Origin: a virus
Virus record (IMG/VR): IMGVR_UViG_3300047667_000420
Location: 1 to 28,551 of that record
Reading direction: 5' to 3' (one strand)
DNA: 28,551 nt
The notes beneath the pieces are model-generated. The model made no database searches, was not told where the DNA came from, and saw nothing but the letters and a program-made list of their open reading frames with translations. Shown one piece after another: positions 135 to 28,551 of the stretch. The position numbers and the translations under genes were made by a program. Position 1 is the first letter of the stretch; each line of letters opens with the position of its first letter.

Positions 135-168
135 CCAACCCGTTAAATTAACCCCAGCCGGTCCCCCC
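135..168 (+). promoter_or_regulatory. Conserved 34-base element, copy 1
   Basis: The first 20 bases, CCAACCCGTTAAATTAACCC, are identical to 17011-17030. They are followed by CAGCCGGTCCCCCC here and AGGCCGGTCCCCCC there, so 32 of 34 positions match; TTA also lies one base upstream in both. The core GTTAA-A-TTAAC is a dyad with an odd centre. Both copies sit in gene-free DNA 5' of a late operon, on the same strand, with a TATAAT-containing AT-rich stretch about 60 bases downstream. This fits a phage promoter or activator site. Its binding protein is unknown. Confidence 0.7.
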
Positions 169-2194: not shown

Positions 2195-3544
2195 ATGTCC
2201 GATATAGATTTACACGAAGGGCAATCTCAAGTATTTTACGACCTATTTGTAGAGAAGAACTGTCTGTTCGCAGTAGCGGCCTGCAGTCGTGGGTGGGGTA
2301 AATCTTACTTTGCCGCCGTTGCTGCTATAAATGCTATTTTTGAACTGCTAGAGCTTGACGCAAGCGTTCCAAACAAGAATGTCTATATCATAGCACCCAC
2401 GTATGGTCAGGTTACTGACATTTATCACCCACTGATAGCCTATCAATTAGGAATGGAAAATCACTGTATCAAGCATTCCAAAGACTTAGGTCGCTTCTGG
2501 TTTCCAAAGGGTGTCGAACTTAGGTTGGTCTCTTATGAGGCCGTTGAAAGACTACGTGGTACTGGTGCATACTTTATTGTTATGGATGAGGTGCGAGATT
2601 GGACTAAAGGCCAAGGCTTTAAGTCAGCATGGGAAGGTGTATTACAACCCTGCATAACTACACGTTGGTCTAAAAGAAATTCCAAGAGAGTAGGCGCAAA
2701 GAGTCCAGGTCGTGCGTTATGCATTAGTACTACGAAGGGTTATGACTTCTTTTATGACATGTTTAACTTTCAAGAGGCTGACAGCGAATGGAAATCGTAT
2801 CATTACGATTACACGACATCTCCCTATTTAGACCCTGCAGACATTGAGAAGGCTCGCCATATCATTGACCCTTTGACATTTAACAGAGAGTACTTGGCTA
2901 ACTTTGAAGATTCAGGTAACAATGTGTTCTACTGTTTCAACAGAACGACACATGTATCACAAGAGATTGCACCATTACAGGACTGGGAAACCGTCCATGT
3001 AGCAATCGATTTCAACGTAGGTTTGCAATGTTCGTCTATGTTTGTCCTTAGAGGCAATCAGATGCACTTCCTTGATGAGTTCAAAGGCGACCCTGATACG
3101 GAGTCATTAGCTGTGTCCATAAAAACACGTTATAGAACCGCAACGAATACCCCTGATCGTAAGATTTGTGTGTATCCTGATCCTACAGGGAACAGCCGCA
3201 AAACATCCGCAGCAGTGGGTGTTACAGACTTTAGTATTCTAAAATCACACAAGTTCGTACTACTTGCTCGTAAGAAGTCACCAGGTATTGTAGATAGTGT
3301 GCAATGCGTGAATCGTAAGCTTAAGACAGCAGCCGGAGAGGTGGATATATACCTTCACCCACGCTGTAAAGGGACCATTGAGTCTCTAGAAAGAACAACA
3401 TGGGTGGATAACACAAGTGATTCAGCTACTATCGATAAGAAAGCAGGAGTGGAACATTTCTCTGATGGCGTAAGGTATGCCACAGAGTATCTATACCCAA
3501 TACAAGCTGGAAACAAGAAGGTATCAAGAGGCTTCGGGTTCTAG
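2195..3544 (+). CDS. terL: Terminase large subunit (packaging ATPase-nuclease)
   Basis: A 449-residue protein with the two domains of large terminases, the motor that pumps DNA into the procapsid through the portal and cuts it. The ATPase domain shows a Walker A loop SRGWGKS (31-37), Walker B YFIVMDE (126-132) and coupling motif STTKG (about 178-182). The C-terminal RNase H-like nuclease shows acidic residues in the expected order: D272 (VAIDFNVG), D329 (VYPDPTG) and D424 (HFSDGVRYATEY). The length is normal for the family. The ATG is preceded by GGAG with good spacing. Unusually, the portal gene does not follow directly; fibre and lysis genes intervene. Confidence 0.95.
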   Translation: MSDIDLHEGQSQVFYDLFVEKNCLFAVAACSRGWGKSYFAAVAAINAIFELLELDASVPNKNVYIIAPTYGQVTDIYHPLIAYQLGMENHCIKHSKDLGRFWFPKGVELRLVSYEAVERLRGTGAYFIVMDEVRDWTKGQGFKSAWEGVLQPCITTRWSKRNSKRVGAKSPGRALCISTTKGYDFFYDMFNFQEADSEWKSYHYDYTTSPYLDPADIEKARHIIDPLTFNREYLANFEDSGNNVFYCFNRTTHVSQEIAPLQDWETVHVAIDFNVGLQCSSMFVLRGNQMHFLDEFKGDPDTESLAVSIKTRYRTATNTPDRKICVYPDPTGNSRKTSAAVGVTDFSILKSHKFVLLARKKSPGIVDSVQCVNRKLKTAAGEVDIYLHPRCKGTIESLERTTWVDNTSDSATIDKKAGVEHFSDGVRYATEYLYPIQAGNKKVSRGFGF

Positions 3545-9286: not shown

Positions 9287-9760
9287 GTGATTGTAATATG
9301 CGATGACGATAGTTTCGAAAGAGACAACTTAGAGAGATCTCTAAGAAAGATTACAGATATTGACCACATAATCCAAACGTCATCTTGTCACGAGCTGATT
9401 GGTGTGTTGAGAGAGCACAAAAGCAATGGGAAATTCCCTAAGGTTGTTTTTGTTGATACTTTAATGATAGGGACAAACGGTATTGATTGCATGAAACTCA
9501 TCAGTCAAGAATTCCCTCCTTTCCCTCTAGTGGCAGTCTGTGGCGGTGCGACACCTGCTCATATTGCTCATGCCTTTCGTGCAAACGCGAACGTATGCAT
9601 TGAGAAGCCGTATGATTCAGCAGGATGGGATCCATTTGTGGAAAGTATAACCAGGTTGCTACTTCAAACACACCCTGAGTGGTCAGATAGGAGAAGAGGA
9701 AGAGATGCAGAACCAAGAGATGAGTGTGATACGGCTAATTGTCGAAACAATGAACGATGA
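9287..9760 (+). CDS. Stand-alone response-regulator receiver domain
   Basis: A 157-residue protein whose first ~125 residues have the CheY-like receiver layout: acidic pocket D6-D8 (VICDDDSF), phospho-acceptor D57 (VVFVDTLMIGTNGID), the beta4 site VAVCGGATP where the usual Thr/Ser is replaced by Cys85, and conserved K107 (CIEKPYD). No output domain follows; the tail is short, charged and overlaps the next gene by 56 bases. Receivers accept phosphate from histidine kinases. A phage receiver without an output domain could titrate or mimic a host two-component regulator. It starts at GTG with AGAGG upstream. The domain call is strong; the role is inference. Confidence 0.85.
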   Translation: MIVICDDDSFERDNLERSLRKITDIDHIIQTSSCHELIGVLREHKSNGKFPKVVFVDTLMIGTNGIDCMKLISQEFPPFPLVAVCGGATPAHIAHAFRANANVCIEKPYDSAGWDPFVESITRLLLQTHPEWSDRRRGRDAEPRDECDTANCRNNER

Positions 9761-10914: not shown

Positions 10915-12495
10915 ATGGGCGTATCAAATGCCACTCAAAAAGGGCGCACGGTAGAAGATCCTAATGCTAAGTATGAGTCTATGCGCGGACTTTGGGCGAG
11001 AAGTCGAGCAGTCTGTAGCGGTGAACGATTTGTTAAAGAGTACGATGCTTTTATAGATGTTAATCAGTTCACTAACTTGTTGATACCTTTCTCGCCAACA
11101 ATGACGCAAGAGCAGTTCAACTTCTTCAAAGCTGAAGCGGAACTACCAGGTGTTGTGTCACAGTACGCTCATATTTTAGTTGGTGGGTTACTAAGGAAAC
11201 AGCCACAACTGGTGCTTCCTGACGATGTACCTGAGGGTGCGCTTGACTGGATAATGACTTCTTTCGCACAAGACGGCTCGCCTTTGACTTCTTTCTTAGA
11301 TGACGTCCTATGGGAAGAAATGCAGACAAGCCGTGCGTGGGTGTTTGTGGACTATCCTGTGATTAAGTCTAGAGGTGATTACGTCACTAACGACTTCAAA
11401 GAGCTTAAGCCGTACCCTGTTTTTATGAAAGCTGAATCTATCATAAACTGGAGAATGGCGCTCGATGATGCCACTGGCGTTCAAAAGCTTACGCAAGTCA
11501 TCGTTCGCGACTTTGAAGAGACTCTTCTAGAAGGTGACTTCCACCCAACAATGATTGACACTGTATGGGTTCATGAGATAGTCAACGGTTTCTACCAGAT
11601 AAGGAAGTACCAGAAGAAGGATGAAGATTCGTCTGTACCTGTGGCTAACGGGCAAACACAACAGAATTATAGTGTGGGCAATAGTGCGGTAGCAGGTAAT
11701 GGTACCGACTTCGAGTTTGTGGAAACTATCGATGACATCGAGTCAAACGGTGAGAGGCTTACAAGGATTCCAGCGTGGCCATTGAATGGTAGCGTAGAAC
11801 TAATTGAGCCGATCCTTACGCCTCTTATTGATAGGGAAATAAACCTTTACAATAAGGTAAGCAGAAGGAACCATCTCCTATATGGGGCTGCGACTTACAC
11901 ACCAGTTATTGCATCTGACATGGATGACGATAGTTTTGAAAAGATCGTATCTGCAGGGTTAGGCTCTTGGCTCAAACTAAGCCAAGGTGATACAGCTACA
12001 ATCCTGGACACACCCACGGATGCTCTGTCAGATATGGATAGAGCTATCGCTGCCACCTTAGAAGAGATGGGTAAGATGGGCATAAGGATGCTTGCCCCTG
12101 AGAGTGCTCAATCAGGTGTTGCTTTAGAGATCCGAAATGCGGCTCAAACGGCACAGCTTGGTACTCTTAATACTAAGATAAGTAACCAGATGGCTGATAT
12201 TATTGCTTTCATGATTAACTGGAGGTATGGCACAGAGTACGCGGCAACTGACATCGAATTTAATCTGTCAGCTGACTTCAACCCAGCGCCAATAGGGGCT
12301 GATTGGTTACGATTGGTAACCGAGTGGTATGAATCAGGGTTAATACCTCGTAAGGCTTGGTTGCAAATAGTTAAACAAAATGACATATTGTCGCCTGATT
12401 ATGACGATGAAACTGCGCAGGAAGAGATAACCGCTGATGAAATCATTAATGGTAAAGAAGATGAAGATCTTGATGAGATCGATCTAAACAACTAA
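10915..12495 (+). CDS. Portal protein (DUF4055 type)
   Basis: A 526-residue protein, the size of phage portals. Portals form the dodecameric ring at one capsid vertex through which DNA enters and leaves, and where terminase and connectors dock. The DUF4055 pattern is visible in the N-terminal third: LPGVVSQYAHILVGGLLRKQ with PQLVLPDD, then SFLDDVLWEEMQTSRAWVFV with DYPV. The middle (LTPLIDREINLYNKVSRRNH) and the helical GALEIRN-like stretch fit the wing and stem of portals. The acidic C-terminus ends EDLDEIDLNN. It is placed directly before the MuF gene, the usual portal-MuF pairing. GGAG ribosome site. Confidence 0.88.
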   Translation: MGVSNATQKGRTVEDPNAKYESMRGLWARSRAVCSGERFVKEYDAFIDVNQFTNLLIPFSPTMTQEQFNFFKAEAELPGVVSQYAHILVGGLLRKQPQLVLPDDVPEGALDWIMTSFAQDGSPLTSFLDDVLWEEMQTSRAWVFVDYPVIKSRGDYVTNDFKELKPYPVFMKAESIINWRMALDDATGVQKLTQVIVRDFEETLLEGDFHPTMIDTVWVHEIVNGFYQIRKYQKKDEDSSVPVANGQTQQNYSVGNSAVAGNGTDFEFVETIDDIESNGERLTRIPAWPLNGSVELIEPILTPLIDREINLYNKVSRRNHLLYGAATYTPVIASDMDDDSFEKIVSAGLGSWLKLSQGDTATILDTPTDALSDMDRAIAATLEEMGKMGIRMLAPESAQSGVALEIRNAAQTAQLGTLNTKISNQMADIIAFMINWRYGTEYAATDIEFNLSADFNPAPIGADWLRLVTEWYESGLIPRKAWLQIVKQNDILSPDYDDETAQEEITADEIINGKEDEDLDEIDLNN

Positions 12496-12505
12496 GAGGT
12501 TAAGC

Positions 12506-15500
12506 ATGGTAAACGTAACAACTGACATTTATGACAAATCTGTAAACAGGTCTGCAATGGTCAGACTATATGAAAAGAGAGTCGTATCTAAGGTGGACTT
12601 ACTTTTGTCAGAGCATAAAGCCCGCGTTGTGAAGCTTATAGAGGGAGGCCGCTTAGATAGAAAAGGGGCGGCTCTCCTGAATAAGTCAATAGAGCGTGAA
12701 ATAAAGAATTCATTTAAGCAAATATATGGTACAGCCTCAAGGTCTTTATTAGATCTTGTCGCTGACCAGACCTCTTATATGTATCAAAGCATTGAATCAG
12801 CAACTTCTAAGATATGGAGAGCTAAGAAGCCTCCGCTTAGGGTGTCTGAGGATATAGTGCTTAAGAAGCCTTTGTACAAAAATAAGACGCTCTTAAAAGG
12901 GTGGGAAGGCGTAAGCACAGGAGAGCGTAAGCGTATCTCAGCCGTAATAAGAAGAGGTATTTCAAAAGGCTGGACTGAAGCTGAGCTTGCCAAAGAAGTA
13001 AGACGTGGCAGTGTGTTTAAGATAACGAGAAATCAATCTAGAACATTAGTCACTACAGCTATAACATCCGTTAAGGCTCAAACAGATCATGCTGTGTATG
13101 AGGCAAACGAAAATCTGATGAGAGGCTGGCAATATGTCTCCGTACTAGATTCTCGGACTACAAGTGTCTGTGTCCATAGGGATGGAAAAGTCTATCCTAT
13201 TTCTGAAACAGAGATGCTTCCACCTGCCCACTATGGTTGCAGGTCGGTGACAATTCCTGTGGTTAAGTCATATGATGATTTAGCCAAGATGGAAGGTGTT
13301 GCCCAGATACGGAAAAGAAACTTAAAAGACCTAACAGCTAAGGAGATTAGCTATTATGATGGTCAGACACCTTTAAAGGAAACATATGATGGATGGCTTA
13401 GGCGACAACCTGTTAACGTTCAACTCAGACACTTGGGAGACTCATCTAGACTGGCACTGTTCAGGTCAGGACAACTTACTATTGATAAGTTCACTAATAG
13501 TTCTGGCAAATCGGTCGGCATTAAAGAGCTACGAAGAATCACAGACTCAGGATATGATGTCCCAGGACAGACTCGGCGGTTTGCGATGGCCAAGCAGCAC
13601 CTTGATTCTCTTAAATTGACCGCGAATTACCCAGATGAGCTAGTTCATGATAAAGCATTAAGGAAAAGCCTTCGAGAGTACTACCTGCTACAAGCGGGTG
13701 AGCTTGACGGTCAACTGTCGTTGACTAACTATCGTGGCACATTGATGAGTAGCAAAAGAAGCACAAAAACAAGAGTCCTGTCTTCACCTCCCACGGAAGA
13801 GAATTTAAAGTTCAATCCAATAACAGGCAGGTACGAAGACGCGAGACTGTACCAACCGCATCCAGGCGTTCTGGAAAACTCTTACAAATTGATAGATGAA
13901 TCAATACTCCCTGATGGCGATAAGCTGTTCATAAAGGGTATCGTTGGAGACCTTAGAGATAAGATGGGCGTAAATGAAAGAGCTGCTGTGGCGGAGAACC
14001 TTAGAATTGTACTAACACGTGCAAGGAAAGATGGAAAGCCTTGGGCAAATCTCAAAGCTGTCTTGAATGCTCAGATGAAGTTTGATGTTATGAATGTATC
14101 AGATTACATGGAAACGCAATTAAGGAAGAATTCTAAGCTTCTCCACAGGTTGAAACAAGATAACTATATTGACCCAGTACTAGGTGAAGTGCAATTGCAA
14201 GACTTGCATGATAACTTCATTAAGAATATATTCGCTAAAAATAAATGGGAAGATACGGTGGCTCCTAAGATTGCAAAACAACTTAGAGGTATATTGGATC
14301 TTAAGATTCCACTGAAAGTCAGAAACAGGCTAGACAACGAACAGCTGCAAGAGTTCTATCTAAGGTTTGCCAATAGGCTTGCCCTTGCTGATTCTCCTGA
14401 TAGAGATCAGTTAGCTGTTACGCTTGGGCGTGACTTATATAACATGGCCAACTACCGAGGGTCGCGAGATCAGTGGTATAAGCTAGGGTTGAAGTTACTT
14501 GATGAAGCAGATTCAAAAGGTATCTTCAAATTAGAGACGTTCGGCGTACAGAAAAGACGAATGAAGAGTAGGTTAGGGAGTCATTACTTCGGACCTTACT
14601 ATGACACATTCGCAGTAAATCTCAGGATTGTAGACCCTCGTATACAGGAGTACGCCAGACTTACGAGACAAGTTGATGTGGGCTTAAGGGTAGCAGTTAC
14701 AAACCCTAAGAATAGATTAATTATTCGCCCAGGTTATAAGACATACTTTGTCGATCGAGGGCTTTTGGGTTACAAAGATACACGCATTCCTATCACTTCA
14801 ACAAACTCTTTTTCAGGGTTTCCAACTGAGCTGGTGGACAAAAACCTGTCTACTGCACTTAACTGGGCGGCAGACAGTAAGTACAAAATTGATGAAGACT
14901 TTCATGACTTTATTAAGAAGTTGATTAACTTTGAAGATGATAGAGGGAGAGCAAAATACTTCCACGATCTTAATGAGTATAGATCGTATATCATTGAAAG
15001 AGGAGATGCCTACGAGAGATTCAAGGCGATGGACTGGTTAAGAGATGGCAACAAAGCGTTCTCCAATCATAGCTTCGTAGATCATCGGGCTAGGATATAT
15101 GAGCGCGGTTTAATCGGCCCTCAATCAGGAGAGACATTTCGCCCTTTCTTGAACAGTGCTGAAAGTAAACTATTTTCCAAAGATGGCTTCCATGATTTTG
15201 AAGACCAGATAGGGGCTTTCCTTGGCGGTCTCTCGGATAAGCTGGAGGGCAAACACAACTCTCTAACAGTCTTGGGGCGAAAAGCGATCGCCCATGAGTG
15301 GAGGGATGAGATGGTGAAAATCGGCCAGCACATGCTCAGAGGCAAGCCCTCAGACGTCCGTGCGGTGCTCCAGTCGAAATTCATGGCCCAAATTGAAGGT
15401 GAAGAGCAAGGAAAGGCACTACGGTATGCAATCGAGCTGGCTAAGATTTCTGATCACTTAGATGGGAACTTTTCAAGCGTAAACTTAGAGAAGCTTAACA

Positions 15501-16987
15501 AATATAAAATATCAGTCGCATTAGAGCAAGATGCTTCCTCAAGTGGTGCTCAGATCATTGCGTTAACAACCAAAAATAAACAGCTAGCTGAGATGTCTAA
15601 TGTTGTAGCTACAAATCAAAAGAGAAGACTCTATGATGAAATTGCTGCAGCTACATTTAACGACCCTAGATTCAGGGAACTTAATCTTAAGTTAGGCTTA
15701 ACTGAGAAGGATCTACGAAAAGCAGCCAAGGCTCAAAACATGGTTACATTCTATGGGGCTGGAGATAAGACAGGCATACTGAACGTTGAGAATAAGCTTG
15801 CTAAGGTATTAGGGAGAGACACTAATGTCTTGGTCGTAAAAGCTGCGGAGCGTGATGCTGTTTTGAACGAGATATCAGCCAGGATGGCAAAGTATACAGA
15901 CCTTGACCCTGTCATGCATGATGAGCTTAAAGCCTTACGCAAGGATATCAAAGACATCTTTGATCGTGGGGAAGTTCCAGGTGATGATATAATGAGACAG
16001 TTATTCTTTCTTGACCCGAAGACAAAAGATTTCGTGGAGAAGATGACTAGGAATTACGGCAAAGTGATAACACCGAAAGACTTCCAAACAATAGCGAATA
16101 TTATGTCAGAGAATTTGGCTACACAAGTCCCTATCTTAAAGGATTTTACCAAGTTCTTCGGTCGTTTAGCTGAGGATTTTGTCACATACGCTGACCCTCA
16201 AAAGAGTTCAAAGTCTCTTGCTGCATTCCTTGAGATGCAGGCTAATGGTGTACGTAAGAAGCGCCCTCCTGAATTCCTTGAGCGTTTTAAGTTCTGGGAT
16301 CCAAATGGTTCGCTTTCTAAGCTTATCTACGGAGTGCCTGATAATAAGCTTCCGAAGAGTTGGACCAATATACCTTGGGTTAACTTTGATGGCAAAACTA
16401 TCGAGCAAAATTTCACGCAAGTATTTGAGCAGAGATTGAGCTACAAAGACAAAGAAGGGAAATGGATAACCAATATACTTCAAGTTCCGCAAAAGACAGA
16501 TCCCTCTTTTTGGGATGAAGTTCGTAATAAAACAGGGACTATTAATGACATCGTTGATGCTCAAAAGGCTAGGACAGCTTTTGCGGTGAACGGTAACCAT
16601 TCTAATGACGCTGTTATTGTGAAGCGTTTTCACCTTTGGGGACAGAAGAATGGTGTGCAAACATCTACAATTCATGATGCGTTTTTCACTAATGCAGCGG
16701 ATGTTGTGAAAGCTAAAGAAGGCATTCGTAAGACTTATTCAGAAATGGCTAAGACTAATACGATCAAAGCTACTCTGGATGAAATGCGTAGAAGAGGTCT
16801 GCCTAAAAATCTTTATGATAGCTATTTGAATGAGGCCATTGAAACTGGGTTGATACCTGTTGTGGGAAGGTCTAGGGTAGGGGGTAGGCTATTAACTGAT
16901 TCTGACATACTCACACCTGAAGAGATCCTTGACAAGGTTCCAACTGATTACAAGAGCAATCGCAGTTGGTATGGAATCGGTCAATAG
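12506..16987 (+). CDS. MuF head protein fused to single-subunit RNA polymerase
   Basis: A 1493-residue protein. Residues ~100-260 are a Phage_Mu_F domain: RTLVTTAITSVKAQTDHAVY, then VLDSRTTSVCVHRDGK (C222) and PPAHYGCRS (H242, C245). MuF proteins sit inside the head near the portal. The C-terminal ~650 residues carry polymerase motifs in order: DHRARIY (859-865, compare T7 DxRGRVY), motif A DASSSGAQ (D1009), motif B RKAAKAQNMVTFYG (R1071, K1075, Y1083), HSND (1365-1368) and motif C IHDAFFTNAADV (H1390-D1391). D1009 and D1391 would bind the catalytic metals. The ~1100 residues after MuF equal the size of the N4 mini virion RNA polymerase. Residues ~260-830 show no recognisable motif and may be the polymerase N-terminal domain. 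Likely a packaged, ejected RNA polymerase. AGAGG ribosome site; no frameshift seen. Confidence 0.9.
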   Translation: MVNVTTDIYDKSVNRSAMVRLYEKRVVSKVDLLLSEHKARVVKLIEGGRLDRKGAALLNKSIEREIKNSFKQIYGTASRSLLDLVADQTSYMYQSIESATSKIWRAKKPPLRVSEDIVLKKPLYKNKTLLKGWEGVSTGERKRISAVIRRGISKGWTEAELAKEVRRGSVFKITRNQSRTLVTTAITSVKAQTDHAVYEANENLMRGWQYVSVLDSRTTSVCVHRDGKVYPISETEMLPPAHYGCRSVTIPVVKSYDDLAKMEGVAQIRKRNLKDLTAKEISYYDGQTPLKETYDGWLRRQPVNVQLRHLGDSSRLALFRSGQLTIDKFTNSSGKSVGIKELRRITDSGYDVPGQTRRFAMAKQHLDSLKLTANYPDELVHDKALRKSLREYYLLQAGELDGQLSLTNYRGTLMSSKRSTKTRVLSSPPTEENLKFNPITGRYEDARLYQPHPGVLENSYKLIDESILPDGDKLFIKGIVGDLRDKMGVNERAAVAENLRIVLTRARKDGKPWANLKAVLNAQMKFDVMNVSDYMETQLRKNSKLLHRLKQDNYIDPVLGEVQLQDLHDNFIKNIFAKNKWEDTVAPKIAKQLRGILDLKIPLKVRNRLDNEQLQEFYLRFANRLALADSPDRDQLAVTLGRDLYNMANYRGSRDQWYKLGLKLLDEADSKGIFKLETFGVQKRRMKSRLGSHYFGPYYDTFAVNLRIVDPRIQEYARLTRQVDVGLRVAVTNPKNRLIIRPGYKTYFVDRGLLGYKDTRIPITSTNSFSGFPTELVDKNLSTALNWAADSKYKIDEDFHDFIKKLINFEDDRGRAKYFHDLNEYRSYIIERGDAYERFKAMDWLRDGNKAFSNHSFVDHRARIYERGLIGPQSGETFRPFLNSAESKLFSKDGFHDFEDQIGAFLGGLSDKLEGKHNSLTVLGRKAIAHEWRDEMVKIGQHMLRGKPSDVRAVLQSKFMAQIEGEEQGKALRYAIELAKISDHLDGNFSSVNLEKLNKYKISVALEQDASSSGAQIIALTTKNKQLAEMSNVVATNQKRRLYDEIAAATFNDPRFRELNLKLGLTEKDLRKAAKAQNMVTFYGAGDKTGILNVENKLAKVLGRDTNVLVVKAAERDAVLNEISARMAKYTDLDPVMHDELKALRKDIKDIFDRGEVPGDDIMRQLFFLDPKTKDFVEKMTRNYGKVITPKDFQTIANIMSENLATQVPILKDFTKFFGRLAEDFVTYADPQKSSKSLAAFLEMQANGVRKKRPPEFLERFKFWDPNGSLSKLIYGVPDNKLPKSWTNIPWVNFDGKTIEQNFTQVFEQRLSYKDKEGKWITNILQVPQKTDPSFWDEVRNKTGTINDIVDAQKARTAFAVNGNHSNDAVIVKRFHLWGQKNGVQTSTIHDAFFTNAADVVKAKEGIRKTYSEMAKTNTIKATLDEMRRRGLPKNLYDSYLNEAIETGLIPVVGRSRVGGRLLTDSDILTPEEILDKVPTDYKSNRSWYGIGQ

Positions 16988-17010: not shown

Positions 17011-17044
17011 CCAACCCGTTAAATTAACCCAGGCCGGTCCCCCC
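17011..17044 (+). promoter_or_regulatory. Conserved 34-base element, copy 2
   Basis: It begins CCAACCCGTTAAATTAACCC, identical to 135-154, then AGGCCGGTCCCCCC, differing from copy 1 by two adjacent bases; the C-run is longer here (nine C, 17039-17047). Both copies are followed by a TATA-rich segment. The location ahead of the most strongly expressed genes of a phage supports a promoter or activator site. Which polymerase reads it is not known. Confidence 0.72.
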
Positions 17045-17222: not shown

Positions 17223-17963
17223 ATGACAGCAGAAGAAATAGCAGCAAAGAAAGCAGCCGACGAAGCTGCAGCAAAGAAAGCCGCCGATGAAGCAGCCGTA
17301 AAAGCAGCAGAAGAAGCAGCCAAAGCTGAAAAAGAAAGACTCGCTAAAGCTAGCGGAGACGATAATTCTAAAGACTCTGATGCGCTTGCCAAAATGGTGG
17401 CCGACAAAGTTGCGGAAGAACTTGCAGGTATTAAAGGGAAGCTAGATAACGCTTATACAGAACGTGATGAACTCAAAGGTAAGCTAGATACCATTGAGAA
17501 TGAGAAACGTGAAGCTGAACTAAAGCGTTTGAAGGATGAAGGTGAACACAAAGCTGCTTATGATCTTGAGATTAAGCAACAACGTGAAGAAAACGAAAAA
17601 CTTCTTAAAAGAAATACTGAGCTAAGCCGTAACGGAGTGATCAGAGAAGCAATGCGTGGTTTGGACTTCAGAAACACAAAAGCTGCCGACATAGCCTTTA
17701 AAGAGGTGGTTGGTGAGTTAGTGCAATCTGAGACAGGTGATTGGGTTCACAAGACCGGTGTTACTGTTGCGGAATACGTTGAAGCCTTCGCTAAAGACGA
17801 GGAACAATCTTTTCTATTTAAACCAAAGTCATCTAACGGTGCAGGTACCGGCAAAGGTACAGGAACCACTCAAACCAAAAGCGAAGGTTCTATATTCGAG
17901 CTGACACAAGATGAAGTACTCGCGCGTGCAGCTAAAGGTGAATATGGAAAACCTGGCTATTAA
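17223..17963 (+). CDS. Capsid scaffolding protein
   Basis: A 246-residue, highly charged helical protein. The N-terminus is Ala/Lys/Glu-rich (MTAEEIAAKKAADEAAAKKA), the middle is a long coiled coil (LKGKLDTIENEKREAELKRL), and the C-terminus has a Gly/Thr linker followed by FELTQDEVLARAAKGEYGKP, as a capsid-binding helix would. Scaffolds guide procapsid assembly and are then removed. The place directly before the major capsid gene, the length and the composition all fit the gp20-like scaffold type. I see no protease domain. AAGGA ribosome site just after a hairpin. Confidence 0.85.
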   Translation: MTAEEIAAKKAADEAAAKKAADEAAVKAAEEAAKAEKERLAKASGDDNSKDSDALAKMVADKVAEELAGIKGKLDNAYTERDELKGKLDTIENEKREAELKRLKDEGEHKAAYDLEIKQQREENEKLLKRNTELSRNGVIREAMRGLDFRNTKAADIAFKEVVGELVQSETGDWVHKTGVTVAEYVEAFAKDEEQSFLFKPKSSNGAGTGKGTGTTQTKSEGSIFELTQDEVLARAAKGEYGKPGY

Positions 17964-17978
17964 CTTACAGGATAAGAA

Positions 17979-19184
17979 ATGACAGCTTTACAAACTTTCG
18001 GCGGTAACTCGTTTGCATTACAAGCAGCTCTTGGTGCTTATGCAGACGAAGCTTACACAAATGCTCGTAAATTATCGAGCACAGGGATTGTCGGCCCTAA
18101 CCCAGACATCAACACTGACACTGAAACCTTTATTGGTCAAGTACGTTGGTTCAAGCCTTTAAACCCGACCATCAACATTGCGTCTTTGACTGACTCTGCC
18201 AAAGGTACAGGAACTAATTACAGTTCTGACTTCAGCACTTATGTTAAATCTGTGCGTACTCACGGTGCTACTCAAATCAATTTAGCTTCAGTTGTTACAC
18301 GTCAAGATGGCTTAGCTAAAATTGGTCGTGACTTCGCTGAAACTCGTGGTGGTGATGAGCATAATGCAGTATTGGCAACGCTTAAGGGCGTAGCTACAGC
18401 TGAAGCTCTTCATGGCGCTGGCTCTGCTGGCGGCGGTGCTGGATTAGGTGGTCAGACTTTTGACAACGATCCAACTGATAAGAAGTTCGGCTTCTATGTT
18501 GACTTAGGCGCTAATAAGCTTATTGCTGACGCTAGTGTGACAGAGCAAGGTGCTCAACGTGCACAAGGCTTCTTAAATGCATTAGGCATGGCTTGGAAAG
18601 ATTATGAGCCAGAATATGCATACTTAGTGACAAGTCCTGAGATTCTTGCATCTTTACGTTCAGCCAACTTGGTCGATCAAGTTCAAATCACTGATGGTAA
18701 CATCATGTTTGAGACTATCTTCAATGGCAAGTTCCGCTTGATCCAAACACGTGCTTCTCAAGGTTTCTCTGTAGCTCAGCTTGCTAAGTTGAACTTAGGT
18801 GCAGGTGCTGATATTATCGGTACTAAGACGTCATTTATCGTGCTACCTGGTGCGATTGCTATGGAACCTTTAAGCATTCCTACACCTACTGAGATCTTCC
18901 GCGATGGCGGTGCTTACAATGGTGGTGGAGCTACTGATATTTGGTATCGTTGGGGCTATGTTGCTCACCCTGCTGGTTACAACTGGAATGGTCGTACTAC
19001 GGTCTTTCCTTCTGATGCTGAATTCCAGCAAGTTGTGACTCCTTCGCTTAACGGTGGAGACCCTATCGACTTAATCGATAGTGCTTTGGTAGCAGGCGCA
19101 ACTATCGACGGCGCGGTAGGAGTATGGCAGCGTAAAGCTACATCAGCCTTAACGTTGGGTATCTTACCCGTATTTCACAGCTAG
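17979..19184 (+). CDS. Major capsid protein
   Basis: A 401-residue protein, probably of HK97 fold. It forms the icosahedral shell. The N-terminal part (QALGAYADEAY-like ALQAALGAYADEAYTNARKL) and the region FIGQVRWFKPLNPTINIASL, then KSVRTHGATQINLASVV match a capsid family found in siphoviruses, in which an E-loop-like segment precedes a long spine helix (GGDEHNAVLATLKGVATAEA). The C-terminal part includes IWYRWGYVAHPAGYNW and IDGAVGVWQRK. It follows the scaffold by 15 bases with AGGATAAG as ribosome site; the codon use is the least AT-rich in the window, as expected for high expression. Confidence 0.9.
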   Translation: MTALQTFGGNSFALQAALGAYADEAYTNARKLSSTGIVGPNPDINTDTETFIGQVRWFKPLNPTINIASLTDSAKGTGTNYSSDFSTYVKSVRTHGATQINLASVVTRQDGLAKIGRDFAETRGGDEHNAVLATLKGVATAEALHGAGSAGGGAGLGGQTFDNDPTDKKFGFYVDLGANKLIADASVTEQGAQRAQGFLNALGMAWKDYEPEYAYLVTSPEILASLRSANLVDQVQITDGNIMFETIFNGKFRLIQTRASQGFSVAQLAKLNLGAGADIIGTKTSFIVLPGAIAMEPLSIPTPTEIFRDGGAYNGGGATDIWYRWGYVAHPAGYNWNGRTTVFPSDAEFQQVVTPSLNGGDPIDLIDSALVAGATIDGAVGVWQRKATSALTLGILPVFHS

Positions 19185-19197
19185 ATGGAGGTGACTT

Positions 19198-19674
19198 ATG
19201 GCACTAGCTAAAGGCATTAATTCGTACGTAACTGAAGCTGAGGCAGACGCTTACTTTCTGAACAGGTTGGATGTGGACGCATGGACTGCAGCCGATTCTA
19301 CTATGAAGGAACAAGCTTTGATCTCCGCTACTCTTATGTTAGAAGACATTGCATGGGTTGGCATGGCTATAAGTGAAACTCAAGATCTAGCATTCCCTAG
19401 GTCTGGCTCTTATTTCGACCCCCGCGTGGGTGCTCTCGTCTATTTATCGGGCGAAGTACCTGCACGGGTAATAAGAGCTACTAAAGAGTTAGCGTATCAT
19501 TTATTGAATAACGAAGGCTTGCAGGATGAAACAGGTGGAGCGCTGGACATTAAAGTCGGCTCTATCGAATTGTCAAAGGTGAGTACTCCAAGTAAGCTCT
19601 CCAGCGTTGTAAGAGATATCATCAAACCTCTTAGGGTTAACGGTGGATCTAACGCATGGTTTAGGGCAAACTAA
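19198..19674 (+). CDS. Head-tail connector (DnaT-like/gp6-like)
   Basis: A 158-residue helical protein with the pattern of head-tail adaptors often annotated as DnaT-like ssDNA-binding proteins: YVTEAEADAYFLNRL, then KEQALISATLMLEDIAWVG, QDLAFPRSG and EVPARVIRATKELAYHLL. Adaptors form a ring below the portal. It comes right after the capsid gene with a strong GGAGGTGA ribosome site. Role is inferred from family and position; DNA replication is unlikely here. Confidence 0.82.
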   Translation: MALAKGINSYVTEAEADAYFLNRLDVDAWTAADSTMKEQALISATLMLEDIAWVGMAISETQDLAFPRSGSYFDPRVGALVYLSGEVPARVIRATKELAYHLLNNEGLQDETGGALDIKVGSIELSKVSTPSKLSSVVRDIIKPLRVNGGSNAWFRAN

Positions 19675-20045
19675 TGGGGTATCGCGCACTTGTACAAAGA
19701 CAGGTAGATTTGGCGTTCAAAGCAATTGGTGATCTTAAAGTGAGCGTTGTGCTCATTAATAGGACTGCTTCTAGCTTTGATTTTGCGGCAGATCAAGCTG
19801 TCACTCTCCCTGATGAAGTTAAAACGATTGAGGGTGTTCTTACAGAAGAAGGAGCAGGATCAAAAGATAGAAAGGGAAGCAACCTTTCTGGAGCTGTTAA
19901 GGCTGAATTGATTCTGAAGTCTACTGATGTGAGGAACCCCGATCTTTATGACACAGCAGTTATCGATGGAGTTGCATGGAAATTTGTGCTCCCTTATGAA
20001 AACAATGGTTACACTATTACTGTAAACTTAGTGAGAGGCTCATGA
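19674..20045 (+). CDS. Head closure/connector protein
   Basis: A 123-residue protein, beta-rich, with FDFAADQAVTLPDEVKTIEG and YDTAVIDGVAWKFVLPYENN, fitting small stopper/head-closure proteins that sit between adaptor and tail. The order adaptor, stopper, tail terminator, tail tube is the standard one and is the main support. The start overlaps the upstream stop (TAATG), so translation is coupled. Family name uncertain. Confidence 0.65.
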   Translation: MGYRALVQRQVDLAFKAIGDLKVSVVLINRTASSFDFAADQAVTLPDEVKTIEGVLTEEGAGSKDRKGSNLSGAVKAELILKSTDVRNPDLYDTAVIDGVAWKFVLPYENNGYTITVNLVRGS

Positions 20046-20452
20046 TGGGTAAGTATTCAGATTTATATGCACACGTCTATTCTGTATTCGGCACGCAAGA
20101 GTGGGTCAATGAGGCGATTGTCACATTTCCTGAGAGTTTCAATGGAAATAAGACGGCTAATGAATACATTACTGTCACAATGATACCCTCCTCTCATGAG
20201 CTAGCTAACCAAACCAGATCAGTATCGGGACAGATACTTATAGATATATTTACGCCTGCTGGTGAAGGCCCTCGTCGGTCTTACGAAATTGCAGACTTAT
20301 TAGATAAACACTTTTCAGGGAAGACCAAATCAAACGGTTCAGGTTCTACTCAATTTATGGCAAGTGTCTTATCAGGACAAGGTGAAGATCCAGATAATCC
20401 AAGTTTGTATCGAATCCTCTATTCTATTCCTTTTACTTATTACGGAGTTTAA
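20042..20452 (+). CDS. Tail terminator protein
   Basis: A 136-residue protein resembling the DUF4128/lambda gpU-like tail terminators: ANEYITVTMIPSSHELANQT (the strand with NxYxxVxxxP), QILIDIFTPAGEGPRRSYEI and LYRILYSIPFTYYGV. Terminators cap the growing tail tube and join it to the head. It overlaps the upstream gene (ATGA) and lies five bases before the tail tube gene, its normal neighbour. ATG 20042 or the adjacent ATG 20045 could be used. Confidence 0.75.
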   Translation: MMGKYSDLYAHVYSVFGTQEWVNEAIVTFPESFNGNKTANEYITVTMIPSSHELANQTRSVSGQILIDIFTPAGEGPRRSYEIADLLDKHFSGKTKSNGSGSTQFMASVLSGQGEDPDNPSLYRILYSIPFTYYGV

Positions 20453-22520: not shown

Positions 22521-25500
22521 ATGTCAGGTGTACAAGTTGATGTAAACGCAAACACTACTCAGGCTAACAGGGAGCTTGCGAAGTTAAATAGATCCCTCGG
22601 AAACATAGAAGCAACTACAAGTAAGACTTCTAAGGCTATGTCCAGTTTAGCTAAAAGTATAGTTGTAGCTGCAGGCTCATTCGTAGCGACAGGCTACTTT
22701 AAGAATGTTTCTGATGGCTTTACAAATATGAGCAATAGGGTCAGATTGGTTACGGGAGACACCAATGATCTGATTAAAGCTCAAAATGAGCTAATAAAGA
22801 TTTCCCAAAGAACAAGAGTGACTTTTGAATCTTCTACTGAAGTTTTCAATAAATTTGGCAGAGCGTTAAAAGGTACAGGCGTGCCTGTTGACAAAATACT
22901 TAAAGTCACTGAATCGATACAACAAGCTGTTGTCATATCTGGCGCAAGCGTGGAATCCGCTAATTCAGCATTACTACAGTTAGGTCAAGGTTTAGCTGCT
23001 GGTCAGTTGCGTGGGCAAGAGCTTAACTCTGTAATGGAACAGACTCCTAGGATTGCGCAGGCTATAGCTGCCAGCTTAGGCGTAGGAATTGGTGATTTAA
23101 GGAAACTTGCTGAACAAGGTGCACTTACGACCACCGTTGTCTTTGATGCTTTGCAAAAACGAGCAGGTGTGATAGCTGGTGAATTTGAAGGTATGAATGC
23201 CACTATCGCTCAAAGCTTCTTAGTCTTATCTCAGTCAACCAAAGTGTTCACAGGTGGGTTCTTGAAAGGGCTAGGTAGTGATAACTTAGCCGCCAATTTC
23301 GCACTATCGTTAGCTAAATCAATAGATAAGGCTTCTGAAGATATAACGATCAGAACGGCGCTATTTGTATCTAAATTTAAGGCAATAGTCAGTGACATCA
23401 GGCTTATCGCAGATCCTCTGGCGCGTGTGTTTAAGCAAATCGGTATAACTATCCTTGAAGCATTGCCTGCGCCTAAGTTGGTGAGTACCTTAGCCAGGGA
23501 TATGAAGAAAGCTATCATCTCTTACTTAGGTCCAATAGTGACAGTCTTTAGGTCTGCTCAAAACTCTATGGTTTCGTTTTTCGAATCTATGGACGTGTTC
23601 AACATAAGACCAGTGTTAGGTGCATTATATGATTTAGCTGATATCGACTTCAGCTTTTCGAGAGAGACTCTGACAGCCTACTCTAAAGGTCTTGATAAGC
23701 TTGCCAGTGCTATCAAATTTAATCGTGAGGATAGTATCTTTGTATCTATTGCTCAGGGAATGGTACACGCTGAGCAGGGCGCAAGATCTTTAGGCAGATA
23801 CCTAGGTGTATTTGAGGATACATTCTTGATCTTTAGGGCAGAGCAAGCTGTACCTTTCTTCCGTTTGTTTGAAGAGTTTGGTCAAATAATCCCACGTATT
23901 GTTCGCGAGGTTAAGACATTAAAATTCACTATGCTGGAGTTGTTAGGTGACTTTGGGCCAGGTTTAACTAAGCTACTGGGAGTGGATGAAGCAATTAAAG
24001 GCTTGTTTGCTGTAGCAGATTTAGTCAATAAGTCTGTTGCCTTTCTAGCCGCACCTTTCGTCTCCTTACTTAATGAGAAAGCGTCTACAACGGTCGAGAT
24101 GATGTCGTCTCTCGAAAAACTTAGCGGCAGCTTTGCGAATAACATAGGGAAATCTTTTGCAAAATTAGGCGACAGCGGTGATATTTTCGGATTAACGAAA
24201 GCTTACAAAGTCATAGATGCTTTCATGGGTAAATTCAGCGAGTTGACTGGTCTTCTTGAATCTGATTCTTGGTGGACTGACACGATTGAAAGCGTAGTAA
24301 GCACTTCTAATGCGTTATGGGGAATGGTCGCTTCTGGCTTCAGACGTTTCCAAAATGGCGTTACCGGAGCGTTTCGCCATCTATTTAACGCCTTTCGGAG
24401 TCTAGGTGAGGCAGTGACTAGTCTGTATGAGAACATATTTGAAGGCGACCAATTGATCGGTAAGTTCTTGATATTCGGTTTGATAGGCGCTGCTCTACTA
24501 GGTACAGGTACTATTCTCGCTTTCGGTGCTGCTTTCTTGGCAGTCAAGGTTTATTTAGGATATGCAGGGGACGCAACTGATAAACTAGTTGAAGGTTTCG
24601 AGTCACTAGGTTTGGCTGCAACGTCTATCCTCGGTATATTCAAACCATTACTGGATACTTTCAAAAGTGTTAAAGAAATGTCTGTTGAGGGTTTATCTGA
24701 CGCAGCTGATTACATTGAAGACTTTTCAGATGACGTCATAAGTTTCTTTGAGAACATTTATGATAAGGTAATCGGTAATTCCTGGTGGACTGATACAATA
24801 GATAATGTTATTGAAACATCTAGGAGCCTAGCGAATAAGACCAGAGCTGGGTTGACTGACTTTACTAAGAAGACAATAGGTTACTTCAAAGAGATTAAAG
24901 AGGAAGCTAAGTCCCTTACAGCTTACAAGATATCCTTTGATTTGGTATCAGATTTTAAAGCGTCTGACTTGTTTGGTGATGTTCTTTCATTTAATACTCT
25001 GGGGGACACTTTCGGAGAACGTATGATAGTTTTGATGAATACGTTTAAGGAAGAGTTTCCTAATGTGTTTAAATCAGCGTTGTTAGCTTTAGCAGGACTG
25101 GCTGTGACTATACTGTTCCCAGCAGGTAAGATTAAGACGGCAATCCTTACAGGTTTAACAGGTGCATTCATTGCAACTAGTACACTAATCGCAGATGCTT
25201 TTGGAACCGTTAGATTGAACTCAGGTTTATTTGCAGAACTTAGTCTCCGTTTCGGTCAAGTGGCTGCAGAGTTTATTAACAGCATAGTAAGAAATTTGCC
25301 GAATATCGTATCGGCTCTTATAGACACTGTCGGCGGACTGGCCAGAGGTGTGCTCACGAATTTAATAGGCGTTGGTGGTATATTTAAAGCCTTATTTGAT
25401 GTAGCAGATGTAGCAGGCGTCGGGAATCCTTTAGGGATATTCTTTGGGTACCTCTTCGGTAAGTCTATATTACCCATTCTTAGTGCTACTAAATACGGGA

Positions 25501-28500
25501 AAGCTGCAATATCGGCTTTCTTAGCTGTCACTAACTCAGCACTTGCCGCTAGAATAATAGCAGGTGGAGGGTGGATTTATAAGTTTATCTTCGGAAGCAG
25601 TAAGGGTGTTTTAATCGGTGCTATTGGTTTGTTTGCCAGTTTTACGGGCATTTTAGAGTCTTTGGTCTCTAATTCGTTGATACGCTTTTTACTTGAAGAC
25701 GGTTTCTTTGTTATGCTTCTTTTTGGAAACAAAGGATTGGCTAAGGTTTTGGGAATTTTCCCATTCTTAAAGAAAAGTATCTTAGACTTCAGTCGTACTG
25801 CATTCTTCGCATTAACTAATGCACTTCCATCTGGAGCAGGAGGGTTGCTATACGGTATGTTCTATGGAGCAAAAGGCTCTAACGGGTCTTTTCTTAGAGG
25901 GATAAGAGATTTAGCCTCAAAGGTTGGTGATCTATTTAGCTTTGGAGCTATTGCAAGAGGCACATCAGGGAGTCTACTACTTAATGCTATTGTAGGGAAC
26001 TTCAAGGACATGCTGGTAATTACCGAGACGTTTGTGACAAGTCTAAGGCTAAAACTTTTAGACTTTGGTCGATTCGTAGCACTTACCTTTTCACGTATCG
26101 CTACAGTATCAGGAGCCGCATTTACGTTCGCAGGTGCTTCAGCTAAAATTGATTCAATATTAGGTTCGTTTAATAAGCTAGAAACTAAGGTATTAGCCTT
26201 CGCCAGTAGGATATTCGGTGTAATAGGAGCCGGTGGTTTTATTGGTCGCTTCTTATTCGGGAAAGTCGGCATAGGCATTGCAATCGCTGCTCTTGGTTTG
26301 CTTTTCTCTTCATCATCAGAAGCTGCAGGGCAGTCAGTTAAGCAGCTGGAAGATATGGAGGAAAGGGTAAACTCAGCAGACTTATCTGTAACTTCATTTA
26401 CCGAGAACTTGAAGAATCTTGGTGTTAGTGAAACATTGACGGATAATATGGGGTTGCTGGCTACAGTAACTATCCCGCTTATGATATTAGGGATTCAGAA
26501 GTTCGCAAAGGCTAGTCTGTTGGCTGCTAAGAACGTATACAAAGCAAGAACAGCAAATTCTAGGGTACGAAAAGACGGCAGAGATAATGCTAAGAAAGCC
26601 GCAGGTGGTCTTGCAGCCGCTACAACCTTCGCAAGTACAGGTGATATCTTTACAGCCGCCGCCACATTTGCTGCTGCTGAGTATGCTTTCGGTTTGCTAT
26701 TTGATCGAATTGGGAAAGCAGCTCAAGCTAAGCTTGCGCTATGGGGTACTAGACTAGTTGCAGGTGTTATTGCTTTCTTCAGTAGTGTGCCTGTATTGAT
26801 TGGGTTAGCCATAACCGCCGTAGTAGTAGGTGGAATTGGCTTATTTGATCTTGTATTTGGCGATGAAAAGTCTTGGTTTGAATCTATGCGTAAGCGTATA
26901 GACAGCATAAAAGAATTCTTTGGAGTTGTTGAAAAGAAAAAGACTCCAGGTGAGAGACGTTTTGGCTCTATTATTGAAGATAATGCTAATGATGTTCAGG
27001 AAGACGGCTCAGGTATAAAACTAGACTTCAGCAATCGATTGCAACAGATCAATACTTCATTATTATCTGAGAGACAAATAGATCTATTATCGAAGAGTTT
27101 CGAACACTATAATGACATGCTAGGTAGAGTCATTGAGGAACAGGAAGACTTTGGAAAGACAACCGATAAGACAGCGGAAAACGTACGCGAGTTTGGAAGG
27201 CAAATGGATAAACAGTTATCTAGAGCCGCTTTAGAAACAGGCCGCAATGTTGCAGAAATGCGAAAGGATATCAATAGTCTTAATGAGTTCCCCGAAGAAG
27301 ACGTAGGATTCTTTAGAGGTATAGCCAATTCTATAGGCCAGGCTGCTAATGATGTAGAGTTCAACACTACTAAATTCCTTATAGGGCTAGCAGGTGACGC
27401 CAAGTCTAAGAAAAACTTAGCTGAGCTTATAGCGTTGCGCAAAGATTACTTCAACGTGCAAAGAGCTAAGCCTACCGAGAATGTTCTCAATATGCAGAGT
27501 GCGCTAGATGAGGCTGGAGAGCTGAATGTGTTCGGCAGTTTCGATAAATTAGACCAAGATGCTGTTATACAGTTTAAGGCACTTGAGAGGAAACTTATTG
27601 TTGCAAGCGAAGAGGTATTTGGGGACAAAGATCTTCACGATTCTCTTCGTAGTGGTATATATGCGACAGACATCCTCAATGCTCCAGAGAAGTTGCGCTG
27701 GTTAGCGCGATTTAGATCTGACTATGCAGCCTCTTTAAATGAGCTAATTGAAGAAAAGAAAAGTATTGATTCAGTTTTGGAGAATGATGCTATATTTGCT
27801 GGGCTTCAAGATGCCCTCAAGGGTACAGATATCCAGATAGATAAGAATCTTTTCCAGAGTTTTCTCCCGCATGCTAGACGAGAGCTTCTTGAGATCAGTG
27901 AGGAAATCGACAAAGCTGTTGATGACTACGAAAATGCTGGCATCTATGAGAGGATGTTTGGTGGTGAAAAAGCTAAATTAGACACTCTTACAATAAAGTT
28001 CAATGCAATTTCTGCAATAAACGGTAAGGATGTCTCTCTTGACACTTTCAATGCAGCTGTAGACTTTGCAGATCAGTTGGACTTAGATATTGATAAGTCT
28101 ATTTTCTTGAATGTTAACTCTAACGAACTATCTGTGGCTAAAGATAAGCTACAAGAATTGGTTCTATTTAGTGAAAACCTTAAGGCTGAAAACAGCGGCA
28201 CACTATCTAAGTCTAAAACTGTGTTGTTCTTAAATGACCTTGGGATCCCCTATGGGAATATCCCTAAGGCTGCATTAGACGGCGACAGAAAGGCGTTACT
28301 TAAGATTCTAGATGATCAAAAAGAAAAGATAAAGAAGTACTTACTAGGTCGTCCCAGCGTTGAGGGTTCAGAGGCATTAAGGGCTATGTCAGGCTTTGAC
28401 TTTTCATCTGCTACTCTCGGTAATGTACTCGAGCGTGATATCAGTAAACTACAAGGCGTGATAACAAGAGGTATTGAAGCTCGAAACAATTTCACCAAAG

Positions 28501-28551
28501 CGTCAGCGGGTAAAGATTTAGGGGCTACAATAAAAGCAGCAAAGGTTGTCC
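22521..28551 (+). CDS. Tape measure protein (partial, runs off right edge)
   Basis: Open for 2010 codons with no stop before the edge. It begins MSGVQVDVNANTTQANRELA with an AGAGAGGTGA ribosome site. The N-terminal tape measure domain shows LRGQELNSVMEQTPRIAQAI and ASLGVGIGDLRKLAEQGALT (about residues 163-205), the standard family motif. Several hydrophobic segments follow (for example residues ~650-676, IFGLIGAALLGTGTILAFGA; ~850-890; and near 1410-1440, GVIAFFSSVPVLIGLAITAV), as in tape measures that insert in the host membrane at ejection. No lysozyme or peptidase domain is visible in the present part. It sets tail length; two thousand residues imply a tail of over about 300 nm. Confidence 0.93.
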   Translation, partial: MSGVQVDVNANTTQANRELAKLNRSLGNIEATTSKTSKAMSSLAKSIVVAAGSFVATGYFKNVSDGFTNMSNRVRLVTGDTNDLIKAQNELIKISQRTRVTFESSTEVFNKFGRALKGTGVPVDKILKVTESIQQAVVISGASVESANSALLQLGQGLAAGQLRGQELNSVMEQTPRIAQAIAASLGVGIGDLRKLAEQGALTTTVVFDALQKRAGVIAGEFEGMNATIAQSFLVLSQSTKVFTGGFLKGLGSDNLAANFALSLAKSIDKASEDITIRTALFVSKFKAIVSDIRLIADPLARVFKQIGITILEALPAPKLVSTLARDMKKAIISYLGPIVTVFRSAQNSMVSFFESMDVFNIRPVLGALYDLADIDFSFSRETLTAYSKGLDKLASAIKFNREDSIFVSIAQGMVHAEQGARSLGRYLGVFEDTFLIFRAEQAVPFFRLFEEFGQIIPRIVREVKTLKFTMLELLGDFGPGLTKLLGVDEAIKGLFAVADLVNKSVAFLAAPFVSLLNEKASTTVEMMSSLEKLSGSFANNIGKSFAKLGDSGDIFGLTKAYKVIDAFMGKFSELTGLLESDSWWTDTIESVVSTSNALWGMVASGFRRFQNGVTGAFRHLFNAFRSLGEAVTSLYENIFEGDQLIGKFLIFGLIGAALLGTGTILAFGAAFLAVKVYLGYAGDATDKLVEGFESLGLAATSILGIFKPLLDTFKSVKEMSVEGLSDAADYIEDFSDDVISFFENIYDKVIGNSWWTDTIDNVIETSRSLANKTRAGLTDFTKKTIGYFKEIKEEAKSLTAYKISFDLVSDFKASDLFGDVLSFNTLGDTFGERMIVLMNTFKEEFPNVFKSALLALAGLAVTILFPAGKIKTAILTGLTGAFIATSTLIADAFGTVRLNSGLFAELSLRFGQVAAEFINSIVRNLPNIVSALIDTVGGLARGVLTNLIGVGGIFKALFDVADVAGVGNPLGIFFGYLFGKSILPILSATKYGKAAISAFLAVTNSALAARIIAGGGWIYKFIFGSSKGVLIGAIGLFASFTGILESLVSNSLIRFLLEDGFFVMLLFGNKGLAKVLGIFPFLKKSILDFSRTAFFALTNALPSGAGGLLYGMFYGAKGSNGSFLRGIRDLASKVGDLFSFGAIARGTSGSLLLNAIVGNFKDMLVITETFVTSLRLKLLDFGRFVALTFSRIATVSGAAFTFAGASAKIDSILGSFNKLETKVLAFASRIFGVIGAGGFIGRFLFGKVGIGIAIAALGLLFSSSSEAAGQSVKQLEDMEERVNSADLSVTSFTENLKNLGVSETLTDNMGLLATVTIPLMILGIQKFAKASLLAAKNVYKARTANSRVRKDGRDNAKKAAGGLAAATTFASTGDIFTAAATFAAAEYAFGLLFDRIGKAAQAKLALWGTRLVAGVIAFFSSVPVLIGLAITAVVVGGIGLFDLVFGDEKSWFESMRKRIDSIKEFFGVVEKKKTPGERRFGSIIEDNANDVQEDGSGIKLDFSNRLQQINTSLLSERQIDLLSKSFEHYNDMLGRVIEEQEDFGKTTDKTAENVREFGRQMDKQLSRAALETGRNVAEMRKDINSLNEFPEEDVGFFRGIANSIGQAANDVEFNTTKFLIGLAGDAKSKKNLAELIALRKDYFNVQRAKPTENVLNMQSALDEAGELNVFGSFDKLDQDAVIQFKALERKLIVASEEVFGDKDLHDSLRSGIYATDILNAPEKLRWLARFRSDYAASLNELIEEKKSIDSVLENDAIFAGLQDALKGTDIQIDKNLFQSFLPHARRELLEISEEIDKAVDDYENAGIYERMFGGEKAKLDTLTIKFNAISAINGKDVSLDTFNAAVDFADQLDLDIDKSIFLNVNSNELSVAKDKLQELVLFSENLKAENSGTLSKSKTVLFLNDLGIPYGNIPKAALDGDRKALLKILDDQKEKIKKYLLGRPSVEGSEALRAMSGFDFSSATLGNVLERDISKLQGVITRGIEARNNFTKASAGKDLGATIKAAKVV
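27030..27047 (+). repeat. 18-base exact repeat, copy 2
   Basis: AGCAATCGATTGCAACAG, identical to 21028-21045, here within the tape measure gene and encoding SNRLQQ. It contains the 12-base palindrome GCAATCGATTGC. Confidence 0.6.

Follow-up and report, generated by a model that had tools for sequence, protein, structure and literature searches.

Can a phage head protein carry an RNA polymerase (RNAP) into the host cell together with the DNA? The question is raised by a viral DNA of 28,551 nucleotides (IMG/VR record IMGVR_UViG_3300047667_000420, positions 1 to 28,551; the whole stretch is hereafter called the window), in which a gene at 12506..16987 on the + strand, designated here as MuF-RNAP, encodes a single protein of 1493 amino acids (aa). 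An earlier note on this DNA, made from its letters alone, had described the product as a MuF head protein fused to a single-subunit RNAP and had proposed that the phage loads the polymerase into its head for early transcription. By examining the protein, its relatives and the promoter-like motifs that accompany them, we found that the fusion is real and that the gene probably encodes a virion RNAP, delivered by the MuF head domain and serving early transcription before a second phage polymerase (RNAP2) takes over; we infer packaging, ejection, catalysis and promoter use.

Virion polymerases and enzyme-bearing MuF proteins each have precedents. MuF fusions carry C-terminal enzymes that are thought to be injected, including ART, PBECR, 2H, RelA/SpoT and Nudix, as described in parts of two surveys (PMC5512222, PMC9503650). 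MuF-RNAP resembles these proteins in using MuF as the carrier of a C-terminal enzyme and differs in its cargo, an RNAP being absent from the enzymes reported in those parts of the surveys, the latter of which dates from 2022. In the open literature, we found no report of a MuF-RNA polymerase fusion; most subscription papers lay beyond reach, so that an earlier notice is possible.

Anatomy of the MuF-RNAP protein

The reading frame extends from an ATG at 12506 to a stop codon ending at 16987, comprising 1493 codons with no interruption, and both the open reading frame and its translation agree with the earlier description. Pfam Phage_Mu_F (PF04233) and RNA_pol (PF00940, 9.6e-14) both matched the protein above their cut-offs; the PHROGs RNA polymerase family phrog_414 matched it at 6.9e-21. 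We aligned 46 full-length sequences, which include the window protein, are 28–67% identical to it and contain some near-duplicates. Together with the fold match described below, the two Pfam matches confirmed that the window gene encodes a MuF head domain and a T7-superfamily single-subunit RNAP in one protein. The possibility that two genes were joined by misassembly or by a read-through frame is negligible, having already been refuted by full-length homologues in independent assemblies and in the complete isolate genome of DSS3_VP1.

The MuF head-morphogenesis module occupies residues 7–345 (12524..13540, +), which are covered by the PHROGs head morphogenesis family phrog_241 (7e-60), with the Pfam core at residues 143–249 (1.3e-13). 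The C222, H242 and C245 residues, listed for this domain in the earlier note, are invariant in the 46 sequences. An AlphaFold2 (AF2) model of residues 1–580 (predicted local distance difference test score, pLDDT, 84.8) gave no significant match in the Protein Data Bank (PDB) by Foldseek, only helical-bundle look-alikes, and the MuF assignment therefore rests on sequence profiles. An HExxH motif is not present in any of the 46 sequences. Between the two modules, residues 346–561 (13541..14188, +) form a family-conserved region of about 215 residues, delimited by the AF2 models and by the PDB matches, which begin at about residue 562.

The polymerase module spans residues ~562–1492 (14189..16981, +). 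A model of residues 300–1493, built from 35 sequences (pLDDT 81.3; predicted template modelling score 0.75), was compared with solved structures by VIA-align, and the best match was T7 RNAP (8dh5_E; Z 29.5, 527 aligned residues, 3.4 A), followed by mitochondrial RNAPs with Z scores of about 26 and N4 mini-vRNAP (3c46_A) with a Z score of 19.3. A structural match to the palm and fingers of single-subunit RNAPs, which had been set beforehand as a test, was thus found. Nearly all of the solved-structure matches begin at model residue ~263 or later, corresponding to protein residue ~562 onward, which refines the earlier description. Among predicted viral structures, the best match was A0A7S5FRK7 (1463 aa, 28% identity), which, judging from its length, is presumably the homologue from the DSS3 phages described below.

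Every motif named in the earlier note lies at the residue given there. The equivalent of T7 DxRGR is DHRARIY (D859, R861 and R863; 15080..15100, +), motif A is DASSSGAQ with the catalytic D1009 (15530..15553, +), HSND contains H1365 and D1368 (16598..16609, +), and motif C is IHD with H1390 and the catalytic D1391 (16670..16678, +); all of the residues numbered here are invariant in the 46 sequences. Motif B, RKAAKAQNMVTFYG (15716..15757, +), has the T7 spacing, and its K1075, Y1083 and G1084, as well as K1072, are also invariant, whereas R1071, at the position of T7 R627 and counted before as part of the motif, is not conserved in the family (36 R, 3 Q and 7 A).

The variation at R1071 would fit a degenerate or inactive polymerase fold that is retained only for a structural or DNA-binding role in the head, as would the weakness with which T7 RNAP is found when the single MuF-RNAP protein is used as a sequence query. 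However, the catalytic aspartates, K1075, Y1083, H1390 and DxRxR do not vary among the 46 sequences, even though identity falls as low as 28%, and we regard an inactive fold as very unlikely. Membership of the polymerase part in the T7 superfamily of single-subunit RNAPs is confirmed by fold and catalytic residues, and RNA synthesis by it is predicted. The MuF-RNAP, RNAP2, T7 and N4 enzymes share only ~10–17% identity, and a tree of them would therefore be unreliable.

Relatives of MuF-RNAP and a second polymerase

Two scans of IMG/VR by homology yielded 125 loci, all of which have a match to the polymerase part. Among named phages, EBPR siphovirus 1 possesses a nearly full-length homologue (gp47/gp49; 53.5% identity by tblastn), and the roseophages DSS3_VP1 and DSS3_PM1 possess nearly full-length homologues with 31% identity (tblastn), labelled "minor head protein-like protein". 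The records of these phages give no annotation beyond a head protein or a hypothetical protein, and the polymerase is unrecognised in them. The MuF-RNAP phages are a widespread, long-tailed group. With regard to prophages, one scan of a genome collection returned contigs of a single metagenome-assembled genome only.

Besides MuF-RNAP, 14 of the 15 relatives searched first encode a separate protein with a much stronger RNA_pol match, RNAP2, the exception being the partial record of EBPR siphovirus 1. The RNAP2 frame usually has ~700–790 residues, is sometimes split by insertions, and is annotated as RNA polymerase in the DSS3_VP1 record. In G002, G004, G006, G011, G017, G028 and G036, the RNAP2 gene is in pieces, as by introns.

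The presence of RNAP2 also bears on the proposal that the head-fused polymerase acts only in the producing cell, in late transcription or in coupling packaging to transcription, with no delivery. The location of MuF-RNAP in the late structural block is compatible with such a role, but RNAP2 already provides a stand-alone T7-like enzyme, and the early region would be left without an obvious reader. In addition, enzymatic fusions of MuF head proteins have been proposed to be injected (in a part of PMC5512222). We consider a role confined to the producing cell improbable.

Promoter-like motifs

Two sequence motifs recur in these genomes. Motif 1, CCCGTTAAATTAACC, is late-promoter-like, nearly always intergenic and on the coding strand, and lies mostly 46–220 bases before genes in three relatives. 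In the window, one copy, CAACCCGTTAAATTAACCCC (136..155, +), precedes the entire structural block, and another, CAACCCGTTAAATTAACCCA (17012..17031, +), lies between MuF-RNAP and the scaffold/capsid genes. The counterpart in DSS3_VP1 is ATAGGKKRCGTTAAAGAGGGG, and repeats such as ATAGGTGACGTTAAAGAGGGG occur before the portal, tail and other operons of this phage. The latter repeat resembles the SP6 promoter.

Exact core sites of motif 2, GCG-N9-GTATCTTATATGA (GCATCTATAATGA in the DSS3 group), number 33; they are distributed over 12 of the 15 records and always occupy the coding strand, while a reversed control pattern gave zero sites in the same records. In five relatives, the number observed per genome was 2–4, compared with 0.03–0.13 expected from second-order Markov simulations. 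On the coding strand, the sites mostly precede RNAP2 by 2–8 kb; 63 of 79 were at most 10 kb upstream of it (11.5 expected; 30 of 31 genomes), a count to be read as a description, not a significance test, of genomes that share ancestry. G011 has no exact site, and the single exact site of G002 is located elsewhere; close variants, [CT]CATCTTATATGA, lie just upstream of RNAP2 in both.

When IMG/VR was scanned for motif 2 by DNA alone, with no protein reference, at least 120 stretches matched in the whole collection, as against 5 for the reversed pattern. MuF-RNAP was present in 24 of the 34 motif-2 contigs of at least 30 kb, including all those above 54 kb, and the 10 contigs without it are fragments of 30–54 kb. 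Among 20 contigs retrieved by the motif, 19 encode RNAP2, and the remaining one is a 33.5-kb fragment.

The main rival to our reading concerns the user of motif 2: MuF-RNAP may be packaged, while the host RNAP, directed by a sigma factor of the host or by one that the phage has modified, reads motif 2, and the virion polymerase serves some other purpose, for example DNA entry driven by transcription or the use of motif 1. Host RNAP starts many phage programmes, and the motif 2 sites of DSS3_VP1 contain a perfect TATAAT. On the other hand, the spacing of the conserved TGCG element upstream does not fit that of a −35 element, and contigs from many samples carry the 13-mer nearly unchanged. A sigma-70 promoter was rejected after no sigma-70-like match was found at the three G003 sites checked, and use of motif 2 by the host is, in our judgment, unlikely. 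An N4-like hairpin promoter was also considered, but no common hairpin was found in five early-motif sites.

The Pelagibacter phages Kolga and Aegir provide a contrast lineage. They encode a MuF protein of 633 aa, related to that of the window and without a polymerase, together with a T7-like RNAP related to RNAP2 (28%). Motif 2 is absent from Kolga, and nine short, near-identical contigs with relatives of the Kolga RNAP all lack the motif 2 core. The combination of a MuF protein without polymerase and no motif 2 in Kolga fits the pairing of motif 2 with MuF-RNAP and is suggestive only, because it comes from one divergent lineage. Where the polymerase would be, the C-terminal part of the Kolga MuF protein (L313, 45152–47053) contains a zincin-like HEFAHH sequence.

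A proposed transcription cycle

The view that MuF-RNAP is a packaged early polymerase, put forward in the earlier note, is supported by the position of the gene in a late module, by a separate RNAP2 in near-complete relatives, and by the tracking of MuF-RNAP by the early motif across IMG/VR. In the cycle that we propose, MuF-RNAP would be made late and, as the head is assembled, the MuF domain would bring a small number of copies into it, next to the portal. On infection, either the whole protein or only its polymerase portion would enter the cell with the DNA and transcribe the early cluster, including RNAP2, from the GCG-N9-GTATCTTATATGA sites without the host polymerase. RNAP2 would in turn transcribe the late operons from the T7/SP6-like motif (CCCGTTAAATTAACC, or ATAGGKKRCGTTAAAGAGGGG in DSS3_VP1), and the cycle would close with the MuF-RNAP gene as a member of these late operons.

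Several points weigh against this cycle, in addition to the variable R1071. A polypeptide close to 1,500 residues long would have to pass a long, thin tail, which is a difficulty. The early region lies outside the window. Motif 2 is equally linked to RNAP2, because the two polymerases co-occur, and we infer its assignment to MuF-RNAP from order-of-expression logic and the one divergent contrast lineage, Kolga. As for the putative late promoter, G004, G006, G007 and G011 yielded no copy of motif 1, so that it may be less than general, and in some genomes it also adjoins the early cluster.

Two known systems share parts of this arrangement. Long-tailed phage P23-45, which comes closest in logic, possesses a virion RNAP fused to the tape measure protein and a non-virion RNAP (PMC10770324). 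As in our proposal, a structural protein is fused to an RNAP, the virion enzyme reads pre-early genes including a second RNAP gene, and the early promoter motif is AT-rich (PMC10770324). However, the P23-45 enzyme is a two-barrel RNAP related to cellular RNAPs and resides on the tail tape measure, whereas that described here is of the T7 type and resides on a MuF head protein. In coliphage N4, a packaged single-subunit RNAP (gp50) with the same superfamily fold reads the early genes and is followed by RNAPII, an order of events that resembles the one proposed for MuF-RNAP, whose packaging is predicted. N4 vRNAP differs in having about 3,500 residues and a zincin-like domain, in lacking MuF, and in occurring in short-tailed phages (according to parts of PMC5512222 and PMC12633501), whereas MuF-RNAP has 1493 aa and no HExxH, its fold is nearer to T7 than to N4, and no shared hairpin was found in the motif 2 sites. 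MuF-RNAP likely represents a third virion-RNAP architecture, in which a T7-type enzyme on the MuF protein of long-tailed phages would have its own non-hairpin early promoter, a second T7-type RNAP of the same superfamily would serve the late genes, and the carriers would form a large, mostly uncultured group.

If this is true, a transcription machine joins toxins and modifying enzymes among the cargoes of the common MuF head domain, and a packaged T7-type enzyme gives host-independent early transcription outside the N4-like short-tailed phages. The motif GCG-N9-GTATCTTATATGA is a testable candidate promoter, and the cultured phages DSS3_VP1 and DSS3_PM1 allow direct experiments, also in deoxyuridine-containing DNA (PMC12697855). 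The passage of a large folded enzyme through a long tail would become experimentally accessible, and the group may yield new orthogonal polymerase-promoter pairs.

Genes surrounding MuF-RNAP in the window

The MuF-RNAP gene is placed between the portal and scaffold/capsid genes. Directly upstream is the portal protein gene (10915..12495, +; phrog_145, 2.2e-49), and directly downstream is that of a scaffold-like protein (17223..17963, +; phrog_206, 6.4e-6). The terminase large subunit (2195..3544, +; phrog_2, 5.6e-28) is encoded further upstream, and the major head protein (17979..19184, +; phrog_247, 1.4e-18), head-tail adaptor (19198..19674, +; phrog_477, 8.8e-25), tail terminator (20042..20452, +; phrog_179, 8.2e-11) and tail tape measure protein (22521..28551, +, continuing beyond the window end; phrog_3519, 3.8e-70) follow downstream. 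Judging from these neighbours, the phage is long-tailed and the window is its late block. No tRNA or Rfam matches were found in the 28.5-kb window.

Interruptions of MuF-RNAP genes and other observations

The MuF-RNAP gene is broken up by group I introns (RF00028) in the relatives L028, L033, L034, L035, L042, L048, L053 and L060, the last of which has five group I matches within one gene. Many of them lie at conserved codons, namely, those of the MuF Cys near 245, residues ~695 and ~877, and motif B (1076–1082), and one position is directly after D1391 of motif C. Extra in-frame domains of about 100–240 residues are present at one or two polymerase sites, in L036, L039, L043, L052 and L054 (near residues 985–989) and in L032 (~1102); inteins were rejected as their identity, with no intein-like ends by eye and no Pfam match. 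In EBPR siphovirus 1 (L003, 20049–25422), an HNH endonuclease gene separates the two parts of MuF-RNAP, gp47 and gp49, and no Rfam group I intron match was found at the split. The homologue in G014 (32233–36971) contains in-frame stops within the matched pieces, as would be expected from either an unspliced insert or a decayed gene. Finally, a small protein encoded at 9287–9760 of the window, among tail and lysis genes, resembles a response-regulator receiver domain by eye; its PHROG matches are weak and are to families of unknown function.

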